Both the position numbers and the translations under genes were made by a program. DNA of 64,000 bases from Glutamicibacter arilaitensis Re117 (GTDB lineage: Bacteria; Actinomycetota; Actinomycetes; Actinomycetales; Micrococcaceae), in NCBI RefSeq assembly GCF_000197735.1, contig NC_014550.1, positions 1,302,001 to 1,366,000 of the forward strand. The letters run 5' to 3'. Below the pieces are notes generated by a model, which was not told where the DNA came from, did not search any database, and saw nothing but the letters and a program-made list of their open reading frames with translations. Shown here piece after piece: positions 1,300-64,000 of this stretch (position 1 is its first letter; each line of letters begins with the position of its first letter).

Positions 1300-2439
1300 T
1301 TAGAGCGAGCGTTGCTCGACCCCGTTGTATGCCGAGAGCGGGCGGATCAGTGCATTTGCCGCGCGCTGCTCGAAGATGTGGCTGGTCCAACCAGTGATGC
1401 GTGCCGCGATGAAGATCGGGGTGAACATCTCGGTGTCGAAGCCCATCAGGTGATAGGTCGGGCCAGCTGGGTAGTCGAGGTTCGGCTTGATGGCCTTGGC
1501 CTCGTCCATGGCTGCTTCCAGGCCATCGTAGAGGCCCAGCATTTCATGGCGGCCGTAGTGCTCGATCATGCGGTCTAATGCGGCCTTCATGGTCGGCACG
1601 CGGGAATCGCCGTGCTTGTAGACGCGGTGGCCGAAGCCCATGACCTTCTTCTTGGCAGCCAGTGCGTCTTCCATCCACGACTTGGCACGCTTGGCAGCAT
1701 CCTCGCGGGATTCTTCCTTATCGATGCCGATCTCGTTGAAGGTGTGCATGACCGCTTCGTTGGCGCCGCCGTGCAGTGGGCCCTTCAATGCGCCGATGGC
1801 ACCGGTGACCGCCGAATGCAGATCCGAGAGGGTCGAGGTGATCACGCGTGCGGTGAAGGTCGAGGCGTTGAAGGAGTGCTCTGCGTACAGGACCATCGAG
1901 ACGCGGAAGGCATCGACTACTTCTGGGGCTGCTTCTTCGCCAAAGGTCATCCACAGGAAGTTGGCCGAGTAATCCAAGTCCTCGCGCGGGGCAACTGGCT
2001 CCTGGCCGCGGCGGCGGCGCTGGTCGTAGGCGACGACGGCTGGGAAGGCTGCGAACAGTTCCTTGGCCTTGAGCAGTTCTGCCTCGGGGGAGGAGTTCTC
2101 CGCCTGCGGGTGGTTTGCGCCGATGACCGAGACCGCGGTGCGGCCCACGTCCATTGGGTGGCAATCGGTAGGGAGCAGGTCGATCGCTGCCTTCACGCGT
2201 GGATCCAGCGCACGGTTGGCGCGCTCAAACGCGCTGAATTCGGTCAGTTCGCTTGGCGTCGGCAGCTCACCGTTCCAGAGCAGCAGGGCGACCTCTTCGA
2301 AAGACTTGTTTGCGGCCAGGTCCTGGACCGGGTAGCCGCGGTAGAGCAGCGAGTTGGTCTCTGGATTGACCTTGGAGACGGCGGTGTAGTCAACGACGAC
2401 GCCTGCCAGGCCCTTCTTGATTTCCTCGGTGGCAGTCAT
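1300..2439 (-). CDS. prpC: 2-methylcitrate synthase
   Basis: Condenses propionyl-CoA with oxaloacetate to 2-methylcitrate, the entry step of the methylcitrate cycle, in the cytosol. The 379-residue length fits type I PrpC/citrate synthases. The citrate synthase catalytic residues are visible: H223 in PLHGG, H271 in GFGHRVYKHGD and D322 in LDYPAG. The start is supported by AGAGGAGCAAG just upstream. It is the last gene of a minus-strand operon after gntR, prpD and prpB, which argues for methylcitrate rather than housekeeping citrate synthase, although the fold allows both activities. A 20-bp hairpin follows the stop. Confidence 0.93.
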   Translation of the reverse strand: MTATEEIKKGLAGVVVDYTAVSKVNPETNSLLYRGYPVQDLAANKSFEEVALLLWNGELPTPSELTEFSAFERANRALDPRVKAAIDLLPTDCHPMDVGRTAVSVIGANHPQAENSSPEAELLKAKELFAAFPAVVAYDQRRRRGQEPVAPREDLDYSANFLWMTFGEEAAPEVVDAFRVSMVLYAEHSFNASTFTARVITSTLSDLHSAVTGAIGALKGPLHGGANEAVMHTFNEIGIDKEESREDAAKRAKSWMEDALAAKKKVMGFGHRVYKHGDSRVPTMKAALDRMIEHYGRHEMLGLYDGLEAAMDEAKAIKPNLDYPAGPTYHLMGFDTEMFTPIFIAARITGWTSHIFEQRAANALIRPLSAYNGVEQRSL

Positions 2440-2480
2440 TCTTGCTCCTCTTCATTGCCGGAGAATAATAATGCTTTGGG

Positions 2481-2510
2481 TGCGCCGGCCGACGGGTACC
2501 GGCCGGCGCA
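2481..2510 (-). terminator. GC hairpin in the prpB-prpC gap
   Basis: TGCGCCGGCC pairs perfectly with GGCCGGCGCA across a 10-base loop. No U-run follows on the minus strand, so it is more likely an mRNA processing or stabilising hairpin, or a partial terminator within the operon, than a full stop. Confidence 0.45.
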
Positions 2511-2533
2511 AAGGGTACTAATTGGTTGCGAGC

Positions 2534-3463
2534 CTAGAGGTTCGCACTGTTGGAATCAATGTCCAGGGTCGGGACCTGGAAGTTGAAGATTCCGGTGTCG
2601 AAGCGGTTGTAGGCCTCGTAGTCTACGAGCTCATACAAACGTGACCTAGTCAACATGTTATCCACCTCGCGGGCCTGAGTGCCATCTTCGCTGATGGCAT
2701 CCAGTACTCGTTCAGCCGCGCCCATGGCGCTGCGCAACAGGGTGACTGGGTAGATGATCAGCGCGACGCCGGCATCAGCCAGTTCCTGGCGGTTGAACAG
2801 CTCGGACTTGCCGAACTCGGTCATATTCGCCAGTACCGGCACGTCCACCGCGTTGCATACGGCTTCGAATTCGGCGACGTTCTTCATCGCTTCGGGGAAG
2901 ATCGCGTCCGCGCCGGCATCGACCATGGCCTTGGCGCGATCGATTGCCGCGTCCAGTCCTTCGACTGCACGGATATCGGTGCGGGCCATGATCAGGAAGT
3001 TCTCATCGATGCGGGCATCTGCTGCCGCGGCGATGCGCTTGAGCATGGTCTCGGTATCCACCACGTTCTTGCCGTCCAGGTGGCCGCAGCGCTTCGGGTT
3101 GAACTGGTCCTCGATGTGGCAGCCGGCCAAGCCAGCGTATTCCAGTTCCTGGATGGTGCGGGCCACGTTCATTGGCTCGCCGAAACCGGTGTCGGCATCC
3201 ACGATCGCTGGCAGGTCCGACATGCGGGCGATCTGCCCGGCACGGGTGGCGACCTCGGTCAGCGAGGTCAGGCCGATATCGGGCAGGCCCAGATCGTTGG
3301 CCAGCACGGCGCCGGAAATGTAGATGCCGTCGAATTCCTTCTCACCGATCAGCTTCGCCGAGAGCGGGTTGAATGCTCCGGGGAACTGGCGGGCAGCTCC
3401 CGGGGTGAGCATTTTGCGCAGCGCCAGGCGCTTGGCGGCGGGGGTTTTGGTTGAGTACAACAT
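2534..3463 (-). CDS. prpB: 2-methylisocitrate lyase
   Basis: Cleaves 2-methylisocitrate to pyruvate and succinate, the last step of the methylcitrate cycle. The 309-residue length matches PrpB rather than the longer isocitrate lyases. The family signature PKRCGH is present with catalytic Cys126, as are the metal-site motif DADTGFG near residue 90 and HIEDQ near 116. The ATG sits one base from the prpD stop, so the two genes are tightly coupled in the order gntR-prpD-prpB-prpC. Confidence 0.95.
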   Translation of the reverse strand: MLYSTKTPAAKRLALRKMLTPGAARQFPGAFNPLSAKLIGEKEFDGIYISGAVLANDLGLPDIGLTSLTEVATRAGQIARMSDLPAIVDADTGFGEPMNVARTIQELEYAGLAGCHIEDQFNPKRCGHLDGKNVVDTETMLKRIAAAADARIDENFLIMARTDIRAVEGLDAAIDRAKAMVDAGADAIFPEAMKNVAEFEAVCNAVDVPVLANMTEFGKSELFNRQELADAGVALIIYPVTLLRSAMGAAERVLDAISEDGTQAREVDNMLTRSRLYELVDYEAYNRFDTGIFNFQVPTLDIDSNSANL

Positions 3464-56382: not shown

Positions 56383-57846
56383 ATGCTTTCGAACGCAGTG
56401 CGACGTAAATTCCTACGCGCCTCTATCGGTGGAGCCATGGCTCTCGCGCTGACGTTGCCGGCAGGCTTGGTTGTCGCCGATGAACTGGACGACAAGAAAG
56501 CTCAAGTCGAAAAGAATATCGACAACCTCGAGAACGACATGGAGTTCTTGGATGCTGACATCCAAGAAACCGATCAGAAGTTGCGTAACCAGCAGGCCCA
56601 GGTTCCTATTGCACAGCAGGCATTGGCTGACGCGCAAAGCCGCGTAGCCAATGCCCAAGCAACTGTAGCCGACCTCAATAACCGCTTGGTCAGCGCGCAG
56701 GCCACTCGCGATGAAGTCGCCAAGCAGATCGAAGAAAACGCCGCAAAGATTTCAGAAGCCGAAGACGCGATGGCACAAATCGCTTCCGAAGCCTATAAGC
56801 GAGGCGGTGTTTCAGGCGGCCTGGACATGATTCTGAACATGGACTCGGCCACCAAGATGGCTGACGGGCTGGACATGGCCAACCGTGCCATGGAATCCCA
56901 GAACGCCAAGTACAACGATCTGGCGCAGGAGCAGGCAAGCAACGAAAGCAATAAGCTTCGACTAGTTGCTGTCGAGAAGGAAATTTCTTCCCTGAAGGCA
57001 CAGGCCGAGGAGGCCTTGGAGCAGGAGCAGGCCGCTCGCGACGCCGCACAGAGCGCCAAGAATGAGCTGGACGCGCTGGTTGCCAGCACCGAAAAGCTCA
57101 GCGCCGAACTGGAATCTCAGAAGCCACGAATTCAGGCCAAGCTGGATAATCAGCAAAAGGAATACGCGGCGGTCAACCAGCAGATCAAGGAACGCCAGGA
57201 GCGTTTGATCCGCGAAGCCGCCGAGCGTAAGCGCAAGGCTGAAGAAAAAGCGCGTAAGGAAGCCGAAGCAGAGCGGAAGCGCATCGCTGCCGAAAAGGCT
57301 GCGTATGAAGCTGAGCAGGAACGCAAGGCCGCCGAGGCCAAGGCGCAGAAAAAGACTTACAAGAAGAAGACCTATGCGGCTCCGAAGCCTGAGAAGAAGA
57401 CTTCAAACTACTCTGAGCCGAGCAGCTGGGGATTGGTTAAGCCGACCACCAGTAACCGATTGACCTCGACTTTCGGCTGGCGTCCAACTCCTGCCGGAAC
57501 CATTGATTACGGTGGCCGTGGCGGTTACGTCCACGCAGGCATTGACTGGGGCTTTGGCGGCCAATGCGGTTCGCCGATTACAGCTGCAGCTGCCGGTGAG
57601 GTCTGGATGGCCGGCTGGGGTGGCTCCTCGGGCAACAAGGTCACTCTTTCGCACGGCGTCATCAAGGGCAAGGCCTTGGCAACCAATTACCACCACATGT
57701 CACGCATCGCAGTGAGCGTGGGCCAGCATGTGAAACGTGGCCAGGTAATCGGCTATGTCGGTACCACCGGTAACTCGACTGGCTGCCACTTGCACTTCGA
57801 AACGATTATCAACGGTTCCCATGTGAACCCATTGGGACTTCTCTAG
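56383..57846 (+). CDS. Secreted coiled-coil M23 peptidase (EnvC/RipC-like partner of FtsEX)
   Basis: 487 residues. Signal peptide (RRKFLRASIGGAMALALTLPAGLVVADE), long coiled coil (about 35-320), a Lys/Ala-rich linker, then an M23 LytM-type domain (about 360-487). Metal residues are present: H384 and D388 in HAGIDWG, H437/H438 in YHHM, and H471 in HLHFE, so it should be active unlike degenerate EnvC. Coiled coil plus peptidase next to ftsEX suggests it is the hydrolase controlled by FtsX. Start is an ATG after AAAGGAGC. Confidence 0.92.
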   Translation: MLSNAVRRKFLRASIGGAMALALTLPAGLVVADELDDKKAQVEKNIDNLENDMEFLDADIQETDQKLRNQQAQVPIAQQALADAQSRVANAQATVADLNNRLVSAQATRDEVAKQIEENAAKISEAEDAMAQIASEAYKRGGVSGGLDMILNMDSATKMADGLDMANRAMESQNAKYNDLAQEQASNESNKLRLVAVEKEISSLKAQAEEALEQEQAARDAAQSAKNELDALVASTEKLSAELESQKPRIQAKLDNQQKEYAAVNQQIKERQERLIREAAERKRKAEEKARKEAEAERKRIAAEKAAYEAEQERKAAEAKAQKKTYKKKTYAAPKPEKKTSNYSEPSSWGLVKPTTSNRLTSTFGWRPTPAGTIDYGGRGGYVHAGIDWGFGGQCGSPITAAAAGEVWMAGWGGSSGNKVTLSHGVIKGKALATNYHHMSRIAVSVGQHVKRGQVIGYVGTTGNSTGCHLHFETIINGSHVNPLGLL

Positions 57847-57900
57847 CGCTAGACTTGTAGTCTGTGCGCGGGAATCCGCTCGCGACATGCAAGGAGAAAC

Positions 57901-58380
57901 GTGGCTAAGAAGAACCAAGAAGATCGAGTGATCGCGAGCAACCGCAAGGCGCGCCACGATTTTGAAATTCTCGACACCTTCGAAGCAGGCATGGTGCTCA
58001 CGGGTACTGAAGTGAAGTCGCTGCGCGAAGGCAAAGCCTCGCTGGTGGACGGCTTCTGCCAGTTCTACCGCGATGAGCTGTACATCGAGAATGTCTATAT
58101 CCCTGAATACCTCAATGGATCGTGGACCAATCATGCGGCACGTCGTCGCCGCAAGCTTTTGCTGCACCGCCAGGAACTAATCAAAATTGAGCGCAAGATC
58201 AGCGAGGCCGGGCTCACCGTTGTCCCATTGAGCCTGTACTTCAAATCTGGCCGTGCCAAGGTGGAAATCGGCGTAGCCCGCGGTAAGCGGGAATTCGACA
58301 AGCGGCAGACCCTGCGCGAAAAGCAGGACAACCGCGAAGCGTTGCGTGCGATGCGTGAGCGCAACCGCGGCAACGCTTAA
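57901..58380 (+). CDS. smpB: SsrA-binding protein SmpB
   Basis: Ribosome-rescue partner of tmRNA, 159 residues. Hallmarks: NRKARHDFEILDTFEAGMVLTGTEVKSLREGKASLVDGFC and the C-terminal basic helix-forming KREFDKRQTLREKQDNREALRAMRERNRGNA. GTG start with AAGGAG upstream. It lies 113 bases upstream of ssrA, so RNA and partner are side by side. Confidence 0.97.
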   Translation: MAKKNQEDRVIASNRKARHDFEILDTFEAGMVLTGTEVKSLREGKASLVDGFCQFYRDELYIENVYIPEYLNGSWTNHAARRRRKLLLHRQELIKIERKISEAGLTVVPLSLYFKSGRAKVEIGVARGKREFDKRQTLREKQDNREALRAMRERNRGNA

Positions 58381-58404
58381 GACCAGGGTGTGGTGCATTT
58401 CGCG

Positions 58405-58434
58405 TTGGAGCAATCCCATGCGTTGCGCTATGCT
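58405..58434 (+). promoter_or_regulatory. Candidate ssrA promoter
   Basis: TTGGAG (58405-58410) and TATGCT (58429-58434) with 18-base spacing, about 60 bases upstream of the mature tmRNA 5' end. TATGCT fits the TAnnnT -10 form. Confidence 0.45.
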
Positions 58435-58493
58435 TGATAGACACGCCTTAGGGTGTGGTTGTACTCGGGAAACCGGGACTGACAACAAAATAC

Positions 58494-58859
58494 GGGGATG
58501 ATCGGTTTCGACGGTGTGAGTCGCGACAGATGAAGCGGGCCGAGGACGCAAAGTTATCTCGTAAACGCTCTTTGCAAACCAATAAGTGCCGAATCAAAGC
58601 GCACTGACTTCGCTCTCGCTGCCTAAGCAGCCAGACAGTCCGTTAGCCAGGGGATGCTATCGCCCCTGTTCCTAACGTCATTTAGATAGCCACTGTATCC
58701 AGCGGATGTTGCCGCTGCTGGGTACACATTTAGGCAACTGTGCTCGGATCAACCACATGTTTGCGTGATGGTTGGGGCAGAGAAATTCCGTAGCAAACTG
58801 CGCCCGGAGAAGACCTGGCAACACCACATCGGACGGGAGTTCAATTCTCCCCATCTCCA
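58494..58859 (+). ncRNA. ssrA: Transfer-messenger RNA
   Basis: tmRNA: the 5' GGGGATG pairs with CATCTCC at the 3' end, with discriminator A at 58859; CCA is not encoded. The T arm is GGGAG/CTCCC around TTCAATT. The tag ORF (58588-58626) encodes AESKRTDFALAA followed by TAA, ending in the ALAA degron typical of actinobacteria. The last 20 bases (from 58840) belong to an integrase attachment core, so the 3' end is shared with the downstream element. Confidence 0.95.
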
Positions 58860-58860
58860 C
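58840..58860 (+). repeat. attL core in the ssrA 3' end
   Basis: 21-bp direct repeat, beginning TTCAATTCTCC and ending CATCTCCAC, running from the T loop to just past the tmRNA 3' end. An identical copy lies at 62585-62605. Typical of tyrosine-integrase attachment in tRNA/tmRNA genes. Confidence 0.92.
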
Positions 58861-58869
58861 TATAGTTGA

Positions 58870-58906
58870 CCCCGTGATCGGCATGATCACGGGGTTTTCT
58901 TTTTTC
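58870..58906 (+). terminator. Element-borne terminator for ssrA
   Basis: CCCCGTGATC pairs with GATCACGGGG around GGCAT, followed by TTTTCTTTTTT. It sits inside the element next to attL and replaces the native ssrA terminator now at 62613-62654. Confidence 0.85.
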
Positions 58907-58939
58907 ATGATGCTTAAAACGGCTTAAATGATGCTTAAA
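58907..58939 (+). repeat. Two direct copies of ATGATGCTTAAA, candidate integrase arm sites
   Basis: Copies at 58907-58918 and 58928-58939, spaced exactly 21 bp apart, just inside attL and upstream of the integrase. A related copy occurs at the other end of the element (62472-62490). Confidence 0.6.
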
Positions 58940-58986
58940 CGCCACCCCGAGCAATACAGGAACGACATAGAACGGCATAGATCAAA

Positions 58987-60117
58987 GTGGCAGTCATCCA
59001 GACTATCGAGCGCAAGAAGGACACCGGCTACCGGGTGGTGTACCGGAACAAGGACACCGGCAAGATGGCCTCGCGCATCTTCGATGACGAAGTGAAAGCT
59101 CGGACATTCAAAGACTTTCTGGAGGCGAACGGGTCCAGCCTCAAGGCGGCCACAGAGGTGAAGCGCATTCACGATAAGCGGATGCCTCGCGTGCATGAGA
59201 TCGTGACCTCCCACATTGACCAGCTCACCAAGCCGCAAACCGGGACAATCAAGCGATACCGGAATCACAACGCCGGGCACATCATCGGCTCCACCCTCGG
59301 CAACATGGCCATCGACAAAGTCACCAAGCAACACGTGATCGACTGGATGGCCGGACTCCGGGCAGTGAAAGGCTCCAACAAGCCCATAGGCTCCGAGCTA
59401 TCCCAGCGCACCAAGAAAAACATCCACGCTCTGCTCTCCAGCGCCTTCGACACCGCCGTGGAGGAAGGCAAGATGGCGAAGAACGTGGCGAAGGGGATAG
59501 GCGACCCAGATAAGGGCGAGGCCCGCGAAGCGGTCTATCTCTCGCTTGAGGATCTACAGATCATCGAGGACGCCATGCCAGACCAGTACAAGCTATTCAT
59601 TCGGGTGCTGGCCAAGACCGGGCTTCGCTACAACGAAGCGACCGCGCTACGAAAGCGCGATATCCGAGTCGAGGGCAAGCGGTGCATCATCATGATCACT
59701 CGAGCGTGGAAGTCCACCGACGATGGGGAGCAGATCGGCCCACCGAAAACTGAGATGGCGAAGCGCAACGTCACGTGTAGCTTGGAGCTGTCCGCAGATC
59801 TGATCGAGCACATGAAAGACCTTCGCCCCGGAGAGCTGATCTTCACTCGACCCGACGGCGAGTTCTTGCGCAACAGCTACTTTCACAAGTACACATGGCA
59901 GCCGGTCATCAACAAGCTTGTGGAAGATGGAGATCTGGACGAAAAGCCATGGATTCATGAGATCCGCAAAGCGCACACTACGCACTTGTTGCAGGCCGGT
60001 GTGCCCGTGAGCGTTGTACAGGCGCGCCTCGGTCACGAGGATCCGCAAACCACATTGAAGATCTACGCACGGCTGGCGAACGACGATGACCAGAAAGCCG
60101 CAGACGCCCTCGGATAG
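58987..60117 (+). CDS. int: Tyrosine-family site-specific integrase
   Basis: 376-residue integrase. The N-terminal arm-type SAM-like region (about 75-170, TIKRYRNHNAGHIIGSTL...RTKKNIHALLSSAF) is followed by the catalytic domain with R214 (TGLRYNEATAL), K254, H324-x-x-R327 (HEIRKAH), H350 (RLGHEDPQTT) and nucleophile Y360 (LKIYARL), so all catalytic positions are intact. GTG start; no strong ribosome site. It lies next to attL, as usual for elements using ssrA. Confidence 0.93.
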   Translation: MAVIQTIERKKDTGYRVVYRNKDTGKMASRIFDDEVKARTFKDFLEANGSSLKAATEVKRIHDKRMPRVHEIVTSHIDQLTKPQTGTIKRYRNHNAGHIIGSTLGNMAIDKVTKQHVIDWMAGLRAVKGSNKPIGSELSQRTKKNIHALLSSAFDTAVEEGKMAKNVAKGIGDPDKGEAREAVYLSLEDLQIIEDAMPDQYKLFIRVLAKTGLRYNEATALRKRDIRVEGKRCIIMITRAWKSTDDGEQIGPPKTEMAKRNVTCSLELSADLIEHMKDLRPGELIFTRPDGEFLRNSYFHKYTWQPVINKLVEDGDLDEKPWIHEIRKAHTTHLLQAGVPVSVVQARLGHEDPQTTLKIYARLANDDDQKAADALG

Positions 60118-60120
60118 ACA

Positions 60121-60162
60121 AGAACGCCCCCTCGACGCATTGAAGCGTGGAGGGGGCGTTCT
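60121..60162. terminator. Bidirectional hairpin between integrase and lipoprotein
   Basis: AGAACGCCCCCTC-GACGC pairs with GCGTGGAGGGGGCGTTCT around a short loop, between two convergent genes. Confidence 0.85.
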
Positions 60163-60175
60163 CGTGCGTTCTAGG

Positions 60176-60703
60176 CTAGTTCGCGAACGTCTGGGTGGAA
60201 TACTCCATGCCTGCGCTTGCGTCCATGGTGATGTCCTTCGGGTCAGCCACGCCGAAACCGATCTTGAACTTCGCCGATTTGCCCGGCTTGATGGTGGTCT
60301 GCGGCGGGCCGTCAAGCTTGTTGTCGGTGTCGAATACCGCCTCAGCCTCTTCACCATCCGACGATGCGGTGAAGTGAATCATCACCGGGTCGAAATCTTC
60401 TTCGGAACCGTTCTCCACCACCACGTCGAAGCTCACGAAATTAGCATCTTCGTTGGTGACAACCATCTTTCCGACTTCGCTCAACTCAAACTTCTTCGGC
60501 TTGCTAATTGCCATGGATACGCCGTTGGTCCAGGTGTACTTGTCGCCGAACTGTAGAGTCTCTACCTGCTCGGTGGTTGCGCTCTCCTTGGTCGCCTCAG
60601 ACGATGCGGCAGGTTCGGCGCCGCCCTTCTCGATTTCGCCCGAGCACGCAGTCAGGGACAGGGCTAGCGCGGCCGCGGCAGCCAGCGGTGCAAGCTTCTT
60701 CAT
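60176..60703 (-). CDS. DUF4352-type lipoprotein, only intact cargo of the element
   Basis: 175-residue exported lipoprotein. The signal peptide has a lipobox LTAC (C20), then a Ser/Thr/Glu-rich linker and a beta-rich domain (about 50-175, FVSFDVVVENGSEEDFDPVMIHFTASSD...TIKPGKSAKFKIGFGV) resembling DUF4352. AGGAGG precedes the ATG. Its position in a mobile element suggests a surface role, for instance blocking superinfection, but that is inference. Confidence 0.82.
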   Translation of the reverse strand: MKKLAPLAAAAALALSLTACSGEIEKGGAEPAASSEATKESATTEQVETLQFGDKYTWTNGVSMAISKPKKFELSEVGKMVVTNEDANFVSFDVVVENGSEEDFDPVMIHFTASSDGEEAEAVFDTDNKLDGPPQTTIKPGKSAKFKIGFGVADPKDITMDASAGMEYSTQTFAN

Positions 60704-60815
60704 TCGGGGTTCCTCCTATTGATTGATTGAGTGATCAAACTTCACCCTATCCAAGAAATCATTCCCGAAATAAATTCGAAACCGAATCGTTATAGAACCC
60801 TCGTAAACAATGAAA

Positions 60816-60841
60816 CGCCCCCGCCGAAATAGGCGAGGGCG
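60816..60841. terminator. GC hairpin upstream of the lipoprotein gene
   Basis: CGCCC-CCGCC pairs with GGCGA-GGGCG (one mismatch) around GAAATA. It could end transcription coming from the IS side. The rest of 60704-60945 holds no gene that I can see. Confidence 0.5.
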
Positions 60842-60945
60842 AAGCATTAGGCGACATGGCATTCACTCAGTCGCTCGGAAACGACAAGCTTCTGTGAGTC
60901 CGTGAGTGTTTCCTCGAACGCATCAATCACCGGTCAAGTCCCGGG

Positions 60946-60960
60946 GAGTGGTGCAACGCC
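60946..60960 (+). repeat. Left inverted repeat of the IS256-like element
   Basis: GAGTGGTGCAACGCC; matches the reverse complement of 62330-62344 at 14 of 15 positions. Confidence 0.75.
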
Positions 60961-61038
60961 TGATCCTTCGCAACGATCAGGTCAGGCGCTCAGCGCGTGG
61001 AACGAATACGTCACCACCTCCTTCTCCGTGGTGGTGTC

Positions 61039-62246
61039 CTACCCGGGGGCCACGACGCTCATCCGACACCGAGCCAACACGTCCAGCCCGAGATACCGGC
61101 GCCCCTCGGCCCACTCATCGGTCTGCTCGGCCAACACCGCCCCGATCAGGCGGATGATCGCCTCGCGGGTCGGGAAGATCCCCACGCTATCGGTGCGCCG
61201 ACGAATCTCGCGATTCAACCGCTCATTCGGGTTGTTCGACCAGATCTGCTGCCACACATTCTTCGGGAACCCACTAAACGCGAGGATCTCCTCCTTAGCC
61301 GCATCCAGGTGCTCGAACACGGCCGGGAGTTTCTCCTGTACGTAGTCCAGCAACCGGTCGAACTGGGCGTGCACCGCGTCGGCGTCGGGTTGGTCAGAGA
61401 CCGAGTGCAGCATGGCCTTGACCGTCGGCCACATAGTTTTCGGGGTCACCCCCATCAGGTTCGCCGCGTAATGCGTCCTGCACCGCTGCCAGACCGCACC
61501 GGGCAGATTCGCTTACGATCGCGTCCACCAGCCCCGTGTGGGCGTCCGAGGTCACCAACCGGACCCCGGTCAGGCCCCGGGCGATAAGGTCGGCGAAGAA
61601 CGTGTTCCACGCGGACTTTGTTTCGCTGGTCGCGACCTTCACTCCCAGCACTTCACGTCGCCCATCGGCGTTGACCCCGGTCGCGATCAGCACGACCGCG
61701 TTGATCACCCGGCCTCCTTCGCGCACCTTCATCGTCAGCGCATCCGCGGCCACCAACGTGAACGGGCCAGCCTCCGAGAGGGGGCGGTGGCGGAACTGCT
61801 CGACCTGTTCATCCAGGTCGGAGGCCATCCGGGAGACCTGGGACTTGGAGAGCGAGTGGATGCCGAGTTGCTTGACGAGCTTGTCCATGCGGCGGGTCGA
61901 GACCCCGGCGAGGTAGCAGTCGGCCACGACGGTGATCATCGCGGTCTCGGCGCGCTTACGCCGTTCAAGTAGCCAATGAAGGAAAATACGTGCCTTGCCG
62001 GAGCTTGGGGACCGCGACGTCCACGGTCCCGACCCGGGTGTCCAGATCACGGTGACGATGCCCGTTGCGTTACGTGCTCCGAGTATGAGTGCTCTTCCCG
62101 TATTCAGCGCCGACCACGGCGTCCGCGTCGGCGGAAAGCAGCGTATTGATCATGGTTTGCAATAACTGGCGCATTAGGTCCGGGGACGCGTCGGTGAGCG
62201 CTTCGACAAGAAGGGGTTGAGGGTCGATAATATGAGGTGCGGTCAT
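61039..62246 (-). pseudogene. IS256-family transposase, three lesions
   Basis: Full-length frame would start at the ATG at 62246 (MTAPHIIDPQPLLVEAL). Lesion 1 is an in-frame TAA near codon 64, after EYGKSTHTRST. Lesion 2 is a frameshift near 61980 (GTYF then FLHWLLERRKRAET in another frame). Lesion 3 is a one-base insertion near 61512-61520, after TGLVDAI. Later frames keep DDE-region motifs ([35 protein letters not shown]). It cannot make an active enzyme. Confidence 0.88.
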
Positions 62247-62329
62247 CGTGAGATTACCTTTCGAGTGAGAAGTAGTGAGCTTTCTCGAAGGATATATCCG
62301 GTGGCCGCTTTCTTATGGTCTGGTCACCG

Positions 62330-62344
62330 GGCGTTACACCACTC
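62330..62344 (-). repeat. Right inverted repeat of the IS256-like element
   Basis: GGCGTTACACCACTC; the inverse of the left repeat with one mismatch. Confidence 0.75.
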
Positions 62345-62584
62345 TATGGGGCACCACTAAGCCTATTATCCTTACCGCTGAGCTTGCGGATTTCCTTGAA
62401 AGCCTTCCTTCGGAGCGCCGAGCTTAGGAAGTGAGGCTTTCAGTTTTCAAGCCCTAGAATGCTCGAATCGCGTGATGCTTAAAGCATCACAGCCTAGAAC
62501 GATAGTGATCGAGCCTAGATGAGAACCGCATGATTCTGCGGAACTCAGCAACACCGACTAGCCAGAAAATTCGATCTAGGGGTT
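62345..62584. other. Right arm of the ssrA element, 240 bases without genes
   Basis: Holds a near-palindrome GTGATGCTT-A-AAGCATCAC (62472-62490) sharing TGATGCTTAAA with the left-arm repeats, three CCTAGA repeats (about 62454, 62493 and 62513) and a small CCGCA/TGCGG hairpin (about 62527-62541). Together these look like integrase or directionality-factor binding sites rather than coding sequence. Confidence 0.5.
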
Positions 62585-62605
62585 TTCAATTCTCCCCATC
62601 TCCAC
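62585..62605 (+). repeat. attR core
   Basis: Exact 21-bp copy of the ssrA 3' end at 58840-58860. It is followed directly by the displaced native ssrA terminator. Confidence 0.92.
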
Positions 62606-62612
62606 AAAATTC

Positions 62613-62654
62613 AGCTCCGGAATCAGGACCAACGTCTTGATTCCGGAGCTTTTT
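62613..62654 (+). terminator. Displaced native ssrA terminator
   Basis: AGCTCCGGAATCA pairs perfectly over 13 bp with TGATTCCGGAGCT, followed by TTTTTG. It lies 8 bases beyond attR, where the original tmRNA terminator should be. Confidence 0.85.
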
Positions 62655-62783
62655 GTTTGCCTCGAAGTCGGCGTTTGCATCGCGAGCCTGTTCGTAGGAT
62701 GGAGAATTTACACATAGACTTGAAATGAAAGTCCTAGGCTTTGAAACGGCATCGTGTGCAGAATTGGAGTGAGATTGAAGTCG

Positions 62784-63257
62784 ATGGGTAAAAATAGTTC
62801 CCAACGGGTATCGCCTTTCCTTTCAGCAATCTATGCCGTAGTGGCTTTCCTCTTGGAAGTAGGGCTGCTCTTCGCCGCAGCGTTGGCGGCGATCGCCTTC
62901 ATCGACTTGCCGACGATTCCGGCAATTCTCGTAGTAGTTATTCCGCTGTTGGTGGTGTGGGCGATCTTCTTCTCCCCGAAGGCCGTCGTCAAGCTCCGGT
63001 TGCGCACCAGGCTGCTGCTGATACATATCATTTACCTGGTTGGCGCTTACGTCCTCTGGCTGAGCGTGGACCACTCCTTCTATGACCAGTCCCAGATCTG
63101 GGCGATTGCGATGCTCGCGTTGACCGCAATCAGCGCGATATTGGTCATTGCCACCGGTGGTTATGTGGTGCCGCACGACCGGACCAAGAAGCCGCCTAAG
63201 CAGGCTCCAAGCAGAGCAAGCAGCGGTGCTCCCAAGGGACGACGCGCAGCTCGCTAG
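62784..63257 (+). CDS. Small membrane protein, DUF2568-like
   Basis: 157-residue protein with about four hydrophobic helices (AIYAVVAFLLEVGLLFAAALAAIAF, AILVVVIPLLVVWAIFF, LLIHIIYLVGAYVLWL, WAIAMLALTAISAILVIATGGYV) and a basic C-terminal tail (KKPPKQAPSRASSGAPKGRRAAR). The LLEVGLL and FFSPKA blocks resemble DUF2568. Start could be ATG 62784 or TTG 62775, with GGAGTGAG upstream. Function unknown. Confidence 0.7.
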   Translation: MGKNSSQRVSPFLSAIYAVVAFLLEVGLLFAAALAAIAFIDLPTIPAILVVVIPLLVVWAIFFSPKAVVKLRLRTRLLLIHIIYLVGAYVLWLSVDHSFYDQSQIWAIAMLALTAISAILVIATGGYVVPHDRTKKPPKQAPSRASSGAPKGRRAAR

Positions 63258-63265
63258 AATTACAG

Positions 63266-63295
63266 CAAATGCCAAGCCGAAGGGCTTGGTATTTG
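63266..63295. terminator. Terminator between the membrane-protein and crcB genes
   Basis: CAAATGCCAAGCC pairs with GGCTTGGTATTTG around GAAG (one G-T pair), between convergent genes. Confidence 0.75.
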
Positions 63296-63305
63296 TTATT
63301 TCCGG

Positions 63306-63686
63306 CTAGAACAGCAACGCTACTTGGAAGCCGAGCAGGGCCGCTAAGACCGTCGCCAGCAAGGTACCTGCGGCGTTAACCAGGCTGGCTGCAAGCTGGC
63401 CTGCCTGCAGCAGGCGAATGGTTTCGAAACTGGCCGTGGAAAATGTCGTGTAGCCGCCAAGTAGGCCCGTACCGGCTGCCACTAGCCATGGCTCAGGCAA
63501 GAGCCCTCCGGCGAACAGCCCGGTGAGCAGGCCCAAAGCGAAGGACCCTGAGATGTTGATGAGGATCGTTCCCCAGGGCAACGAGCTTGGAAGCCATAAT
63601 TTGATCAGAGCATCAAGCACGAAGCGCAGGCAGGCACCTACGCCGCCACACAGCGAGACGATCAGGAATAAGCCGGGGGAGAGCAC
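63306..63686 (-). CDS. crcB: Fluoride channel subunit CrcB (second of pair)
   Basis: Fluc/CrcB fluoride channel of 126 residues with four helices. Motifs: GGVGACLRF, NISGSFALGLLTGL and GLLGGYTTFSTASFE, the last lining the pore. GTG at 63686 has GGAGG nine bases upstream and overlaps the TAG of the preceding crcB copy by one base (TAGTG). Actinobacterial genomes often encode two dissimilar subunits in tandem that form a heterodimeric channel. Confidence 0.9.
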   Translation of the reverse strand: MLSPGLFLIVSLCGGVGACLRFVLDALIKLWLPSSLPWGTILINISGSFALGLLTGLFAGGLLPEPWLVAAGTGLLGGYTTFSTASFETIRLLQAGQLAASLVNAAGTLLATVLAALLGFQVALLF

Positions 63687-64000
63687 TATCGACGTCCTCC
63701 GGGGGATCGGGCCGCCCATTTGGCACCCACCGCGATACCGCACCAGGTCGCCAGCGCGCCGAGGATCACCGTGCCCAGGGGATAAGCCAGCGCCCAGGGC
63801 ATGGCCCCGGAGCGCAGCAACTGCATGGTTCCTGTAGCCAGGGCGCTGTAGGTGGTGAAGCCACCCATGAAGCCGGTGCCCAGCAACAGGCGAAGCGAGC
63901 GGCGCCGGCCCACATCCCGGCCTCGTCGCGAGAGCGCTTCAAGCAGCATCCCCAGCAGGAAGGCGCCGAGGATATTGGCGATGAAAATTGAGACCGGGAC
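63686..64000 (-). CDS. crcB: Fluoride channel subunit CrcB (first of pair), 5' end outside the window
   Basis: C-terminal 104 residues of a CrcB protein: SIFIANILGAFLLGMLLEAL, then GTGFMGGFTTYSALATGTMQL and two helices. The reading frame is open to the window end, so the start and first helix lie beyond 64000. It is the upstream partner of the overlapping crcB gene. Confidence 0.88.
   Translation of the reverse strand, partial: VPVSIFIANILGAFLLGMLLEALSRRGRDVGRRRSLRLLLGTGFMGGFTTYSALATGTMQLLRSGAMPWALAYPLGTVILGALATWCGIAVGAKWAARSPGGRR

Follow-up and report, generated by a model that had tools for sequence, protein, structure and literature searches.

A probable prophage remnant with its own transcription terminator at the ssrA gene of Glutamicibacter arilaitensis Re117

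For the Cluster K1 mycobacteriophages, which integrate into the tmRNA gene, a putative stem-loop terminator between the core of the attachment site and the arm site P3, as well as paired 11-bp arm repeats, were described in 2011 (PMC3203893). In the literature on terminators in the attachment (att) sites of elements at tmRNA or tRNA genes, the figure legend in that paper is the sole statement that we found of a terminator between a tmRNA core and arm sites (PMC3203893). Here, we describe an insert with a similar layout at the tmRNA gene (ssrA) of Glutamicibacter arilaitensis Re117, located in a window of 64,000 nt (the whole stretch of DNA that was analyzed) on the 3,859,257-bp contig of a genome of 3,918,192 bases in three contigs. 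The species was formerly named Arthrobacter arilaitensis. The insert is very probably a collapsed prophage, derived from an ssrA-targeting phage that carried a terminator in its attachment site (attP) and later lost most of its genes through an insertion sequence (IS) of the IS256 family. Re117 is a cheese bacterium rich in ISs, and the words "prophage" and "integrase" do not occur in the main text of its genome paper (PMC2991359).

The insert at ssrA and its two terminators

The 21-mer TTCAATTCTCCCCATCTCCAC occurs in two exact copies with a spacing of 3745 bp, one of which forms the T arm and the 3' side of the acceptor stem of the tmRNA (Table 1). Throughout the 3.92-Mb genome, this core (searched with Y at one position) is confined to these two sites, and a reversed control pattern yielded no match. 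The exact copies and their uniqueness in the genome bear out the proposal of a preliminary description of this locus that the repeats are attL and attR, 3.75 kb apart. ARAGORN delimits an intact tmRNA gene, for which the attL core supplies the 3' end, and the Rfam model RF00023 matches positions 58494-58862 with 154 bits; the tag peptide is AESKRTDFALAA. Both predictions agree with the earlier proposal that the tmRNA remains intact after integration at the ssrA 3' end. Integration thus leaves the tmRNA gene complete, which is ordinary in kind, and the locus is a clean example of it.

The ssrA gene is present in all 18 genomes of the genus, that of Re117 included. Empty sites, which the preliminary description had suggested to look for in relatives, are present in 16 of the 17 other Glutamicibacter genomes: a single core is followed by a hairpin unlike that of the element, and no second core with up to three mismatches was found within about 12 kb downstream of ssrA. 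None of the 16 shows the 3.75-kb insert at this place. The flank downstream of attR aligns by blastn behind ssrA in 15 of these 16 genomes (the exception is L038, and in L034 only the crcB part aligns). In one of them (G011), the window positions 57502-58864 and 62585-63999 align to the adjoining stretches 602-1964 and 1940-3354, and therefore the terminator now found past attR is the native one. A strong hairpin and a T tract directly follow ssrA in all 16 element-free relatives. Together with the G011 alignment, these native hairpins confirm that the element carries a terminator after attL and that the native one lies past attR. The locus thus combines a tyrosine integrase gene (int) next to a regenerated tmRNA gene, a copy of the core at the far boundary and empty sites in relatives, as is characteristic of elements integrated into tmRNA genes.

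A scan for terminator-like hairpins over 4.4 kb gave six sites, compared with 4.0 in shuffled sequences, and on its own proves little; the terminator calls therefore rest on position and comparison. For the 50 nt after the core, the predicted stability is lower in the element (-22.8 kcal/mol) than at the native site (-30.8 kcal/mol), and the T tract of the element is longer. As is typical of an intrinsic terminator, a G+C-rich hairpin is followed by a T tract, and this arrangement is kept across relatives.

The two ends of the element also share 11-bp repeats. Two copies of TGATGCTTAAA lie behind the terminator, and two further copies lie in opposite orientations before attR, the inverted one at 62479 with one mismatch. 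In the 64-kb window, TGATGCTTAAA has four matches with at most one mismatch, all at the ends of the element, and four matches were reached in none of 100 shuffles. These repeats are putative arm sites of the integrase. The preliminary description had overlooked both the arm-like repeats and the IS256-family IS.

The terminator in phage attachment sites

A 30-nt query covering the att site matched 44 phage records, of which 21 matches, representing 13 distinct phages, were convincing and 23 were weak (E values of 2-8). Ten of the 13 phages were read from their own records, and for Peas, Constance and Eileen viral contigs were used. All 13 are Arthrobacter phages that carry the tmRNA core with one mismatch and, directly behind it, a hairpin and a T tract. 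In addition, a pattern scan of viral contigs yielded 15 stretches on 14 contigs, and a search for the integrase family in 295 genomes (240 with some match) yielded seven loci with an integrase gene at a tmRNA, two of which are copies of the present element. To all these sites an automatic test was applied, which demands a terminator that starts at most 15 nt after the core, with at most -12 kcal/mol and at least five T residues. It was positive for 8/8 unique attP segments from the ten phage records (shuffles: 0/320), for 12/13 unique segments from the viral contigs (2/520), for 7/7 tmRNA-integrase loci (1/280) and for 16/16 native Glutamicibacter sites (6/640), against a background of 16 of 2776 windows. 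The viral-contig set includes five contigs of the same phages, and one stretch (L058) was too short for the test. The sole negative segment (L052) and a positive one (L055) represent two cores on one 52.5-kb viral contig that share the same 26 upstream bases; this contig may contain a prophage junction or a tandem arrangement.

The attP sites of these phages thus carry the end of the tmRNA together with a terminator; therefore, attL keeps both after integration, and the native terminator comes to lie beyond attR. As the sequence shows, the attP of the phage that gave rise to the insert in Re117 had the order last 21 bp of the tmRNA, own intrinsic terminator, arm sites, int. The terminator most likely serves two roles, in that it would end the tmRNA precursor near the native place and would shield int from the ssrA promoter. 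Before integration, the terminator of the phage would likewise block reading into int from upstream genes; in Shoya, gp37 lies upstream on the same strand.

The hairpin separates the core from the arm-like repeats, in a region bound by recombination proteins, and could accordingly be a DNA site in attP for the integrase or an accessory protein instead of a terminator. This is very unlikely, because a T tract follows, a hairpin and T tract occupy the equivalent place in all 16 element-free hosts, and the pairing is kept despite changes in the stem. The latter was analyzed with 15 segments (12 distinct) picked for gap-free alignment. All 132 of 132 pair cells are paired, and the changed cells together with the covariation score were reached by none of 500 shuffles; the score was 0.466, compared with 0.166 in shuffled alignments and at most 0.052 when the stem was slid. 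Because pairing is kept while the stem sequence changes, the attP stem appears to be kept by compensatory change.

Such compensatory change also bears on another explanation, namely that the terminator is old host DNA that an ancestor captured together with the ssrA end, and that it has no function for the phage. The position of the terminator fits this explanation, since it starts 0-7 nt after the core in attP sites and 2-7 nt after it in native sites. Moreover, some native stems (L032, L037, L038) start with AGCCCCGG, as do several attP stems, and the native terminators compared are those of Glutamicibacter rather than of the Arthrobacter hosts of the phages. We nevertheless regard capture without function as unlikely, because pairing in the attP hairpins has been maintained through compensatory change and because elements at tRNA-Ser, tRNA-Ala, tRNA-Met and tRNA-Leu(GAG) genes carry a terminator as well.

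These elements stem from 30 loci of the integrase family search; 29 have an RNA gene at most 160 nt upstream of int and were counted, and L082 was omitted as it has no RNA gene. A terminator is present at all seven tmRNA genes, at 4/4 tRNA-Leu(GAG), 3/3 tRNA-Ser, 1/1 tRNA-Ala and 1/1 tRNA-Met genes. Under the stricter of two tests, none was found before int at the 12 tRNA-Leu(CAA) loci (L084-L086, L089, L090, L092-L098) and the single tRNA-Leu(UAG) locus; weak hairpins at three of the former and at the latter passed the loose test and failed the stricter one. The native terminators behind tRNA-Leu(CAA) are strong in 17 of 18 Glutamicibacter cases. In four other genera, 10 of 19 tRNA-Leu(CAA) loci were positive, several others look like element sequence, and one ends at a contig end; in this survey of tRNA-Leu in 20 genomes, the second tRNA-Leu loci (L183-L192) were set aside, as was the best match of G067 (L182). 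Since the picture in the four genera is mixed, the contrast with the tRNA-Leu(CAA) elements is exploratory. The integrases of the latter are only about 32-35% identical to that of Re117 and may be close to each other, so that these elements could represent few independent events. A somewhat doubtful, tentative generalization is that phages targeting RNA genes choose how int is wired, with a terminator in attP at ssrA and several tRNA genes, while the tRNA-Leu(CAA) elements let the tRNA promoter read int. If so, the attP terminator at ssrA and several tRNA genes would both finish the host RNA and keep int off the host promoter.

Phage relatives and the probable loss of the prophage genes

Among the 20 matches listed for the Re117 integrase (1455 phage records match at all), the identity to the integrases of Arthrobacter phages is 50.8-56.8%, and Shoya (57%), Sarge (55%) and ArV2 (54%) are the closest of them. 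Outside the genus, the four genomes whose integrases are nearest each contain an element at ssrA. In three, two cores delimit prophages of 39.6 kb (G234), 44.8 kb (G027) and 47.1 kb (G089); the fourth (G197) has one core, and its integrase frame contains one stop. The prophage in G027 carries next to int a lipoprotein gene whose product is 50% identical to the lipoprotein of the Re117 element, and in G089 a lipoprotein gene behind int scores 25.8 bits for DUF4352, just under the cut-off of 25.9. The Re117 insert shares the integrase and the attP layout with a group of ssrA-targeting actinophages, as expected for a remnant of such a phage. Integration of a temperate phage related to the ssrA-targeting Arthrobacter phages, by its tyrosine integrase and into the ssrA 3' end, is supported by the att copies, the empty sites and these relatives.

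In a further genome (G281), two cores at C1:2921714 and 2961629 (L194) lie 39.9 kb apart; a hairpin and T tract directly follow the tmRNA, and an integrase match lies behind the first core, so that this is likely another ssrA prophage with its own terminator. In G111, two ssrA cores lie 1.3 kb apart (C72:1068 and 2396, L193), and the tmRNA gene is on another contig. Within 5 kb of this locus no tmRNA was found, and a crude motif recognized no integrase between the cores, which are possibly stacked attR remnants. A seemingly smaller ssrA element in G172, with two cores in identical surroundings, looks like an assembly overlap at the contig ends. A plasmid origin of the Re117 element was rejected, as all matches of the integrase to plasmids by tblastn have less than 60% identity (142 records; the 20 listed have 22-32%). 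Nor is a wide spread in named bacterial genomes indicated: a contig search, which detects close relatives only, gave G. nicotianae and one match of 22% identity.

The only other copy at ssrA among the 18 genomes of the genus is that of G. nicotianae NBRC 14234. The two copies are identical in 2009 of 2070 aligned bases (97.05%), and the flanks in 87.5% (smpB side) and 77.8% (far flank); therefore, the element has moved between lineages or arrived recently. In G. nicotianae, the sequence runs beyond the position equivalent to 60931 into a frame of 141 aa with a Peptidase_M78/ImmA-type domain, which has relatives in 34 phage records (27 Arthrobacter, 6 Corynebacterium, 1 Glutamicibacter). In Re117, the IS begins where this homology stops, within the ImmA-type frame. 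Its left end is fixed by two partial copies in another genome (G004) that begin at the base matching 60932. No target duplication was found around the IS, the sole 7-mer or longer sequence shared between the sides lying inside the IS on the right. Because the gene is broken, the IS lies at the break and no target duplication was found, we infer an IS-mediated deletion as the simplest reading. The later IS256-family element would have removed most of the prophage and left int, the lipoprotein gene, a stump of the ImmA-type gene and both ends. The G. nicotianae copy is truncated differently, and L022:5400-9600 contains an ISL3-type transposase among other fragments; this transposase follows the ImmA-type frame, and the attR core is lost.

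The preliminary description had taken the insert for a very small integrative element. Integration into ssrA stands, whereas the relatives of 40-47 kb, the continuation in G. nicotianae and the IS at the break speak against a very small element as such. A minimal integrative element or phage satellite would consist of int and the lipoprotein gene, with a helper phage that gives the excisionase and a later insertion of the IS256 element. The intact integrase frame, the two intact cores, the arm-like repeats on both sides and the near-identical pair of int and lipoprotein gene in two species would suit such an element. It is nonetheless improbable, because the ImmA/IrrE-type gene into which the G. 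nicotianae copy runs on is interrupted in Re117 precisely at the IS, the relatives of the integrase reside in prophages of 40-47 kb, and the IS lacks a detectable target duplication.

Several points weigh against a collapsed prophage with a functional attP terminator. The right end of the IS, near 62358, was placed by analogy with a copy in Kocuria, the deletion step is inferred, and termination and insulation are predicted. No lipoprotein gene was seen behind int in G234, and in G027 and G089 it has the same direction as int, opposite to that in Re117. An intact prophage with the order integrase-lipoprotein-ImmA was not found, and TGATGCTTAAA was not found in the five phage loci first fetched. 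No excisionase was recognized among the small frames scanned, none of which has a Pfam family, and a short, unannotated one could escape. Both sides were changed in 5 of 11 stem pairs, a count that by itself lies within the shuffles (95/500).

Between the cores, only int, the lipoprotein gene, the ImmA stump and the IS remnant were recognized, and no structural, packaging, replication or excisionase genes; the gene set of a functional prophage is absent, hence the designation as a remnant. As no excisionase was recognized, the element is probably fixed unless another phage helps. The start of int lies 126 nt downstream of ssrA on the same strand. The DUF4352 lipoprotein is 99% identical between the two Glutamicibacter species and is the cargo (moron) protein of the element, possibly of the superinfection-exclusion type, which its place beside int would fit; it matched none of the PADLOC families of known anti-phage systems. 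Six further small frames of the element have no Pfam family (6/6).

Table 1. Features of the ssrA locus of G. arilaitensis Re117 (window coordinates)
Feature	Position	Strand	Basis and remarks
ssrA (tmRNA)	58494-58860	+	ARAGORN; intact, attL core supplies 3' end
attL core, 21 bp, T arm and 3' side of the acceptor stem of the tmRNA	58840-58860	+	exact repeat
Element-borne, attP-derived intrinsic terminator directly after ssrA	58868-58905	+	hairpin 58868-58896, then T tract
Two arm-like 11-bp repeats, P' side	58908-58918, 58929-58939	+	repeat search; putative integrase arm sites
Tyrosine integrase, 376 aa, open frame	58987-60117	+	PF00589 1.4e-20; phrog_1 3.7e-57; 57% identity to the integrase of Arthrobacter phage Shoya
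Terminator-like inverted repeat separating the convergent genes for integrase and lipoprotein	60118-60165	.	21-nt arms, 90% complementary
DUF4352 lipoprotein, 175 aa	60176-60703	-	PF11611 9.1e-6; phrog_806 6.2e-9
ImmA/IrrE-type protease gene, 3' stump, last ~27 codons	60847-60931	-	aligned with longer G. nicotianae frame L022:9590-10015; PF06114
Degenerate IS256-family insertion sequence	60932-62358	-	PF00872, NF033543; transposase broken into three frames, 62246-62070, 62050-61394, 61455-61039
Putative prophage right end, P arm side	62359-62584	+	arm-like repeats 62473-62483 (+), 62479-62489 (-)
attR core, 21 bp	62585-62605	+	exact repeat of tmRNA 3' end
Native ssrA terminator, now past attR	62613-62654	+	hairpin 62613-62650, then T tract; homologous to G011 empty-site terminator

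Comparison with known systems

The results indicate that an attachment site can supply an RNA gene with a transcription stop as well as with its missing end, and provide many examples. This bears on how the effect of integration on tmRNA is judged, and integration vectors for ssrA may need the hairpin. The locus would also illustrate how a prophage shrinks, via an IS, to what appears to be a tiny mobile element.

Several described systems share parts of this layout. The tDNA islands (InTr shape STI; intS of KplE1) have the same order of RNA gene, attL and int, and an int promoter that overlaps attL is the published rule (PMC2951348). By analogy, such a promoter would fit the short gap between ssrA and int in Re117; however, the KplE1 paper treats the autoregulation of int rather than a terminator borne by attL (PMC2951348). 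In PICI satellites integrated at fis, the att identity block lies at the end of the host gene and can extend into the rho-independent terminator (PMC10111431). In that case, the target is a protein gene and the shared block enters the host terminator, whereas the core in Re117 ends ahead of the host terminator and the element brings a different one (PMC10111431). The lipoprotein resembles the Ltp-type superinfection-exclusion lipoproteins, such as that of the Streptococcus thermophilus phage TP-J34, in the location of its gene in a lysogeny module (PMC3952083), but it belongs to DUF4352, and the likeness is one of gene place. A search of phages for the lipoprotein matched only four Microbacterium phages, unlike the integrase with its Arthrobacter relatives.

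Other close systems are the Arthrobacter phages Shoya, Sarge, ArV2, Bridgette, Zucker and their kin, which share an integrase of 51-57% identity (among the matches listed), the core with one mismatch and an own terminator upstream of int. Unlike the Re117 element, they are complete (36-53 kb), and those fetched with annotation have a small gene between attP and int. The Cluster K1 phages (CrimD, Adephagia and others) have, like the Re117 element, a core that corresponds to the 3' end of tmRNA and adjoins a tyrosine integrase gene on its 5' side, a putative terminator and arm repeats (PMC3203893). However, they are intact phages with a putative excisionase and another host, and the likeness is one of layout (PMC3203893). 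Taken together, the Re117 element is a new, degraded example of a known layout in the Micrococcaceae. What the present analysis adds are counts, a covariation test and the contrast with the tRNA-Leu(CAA) elements.

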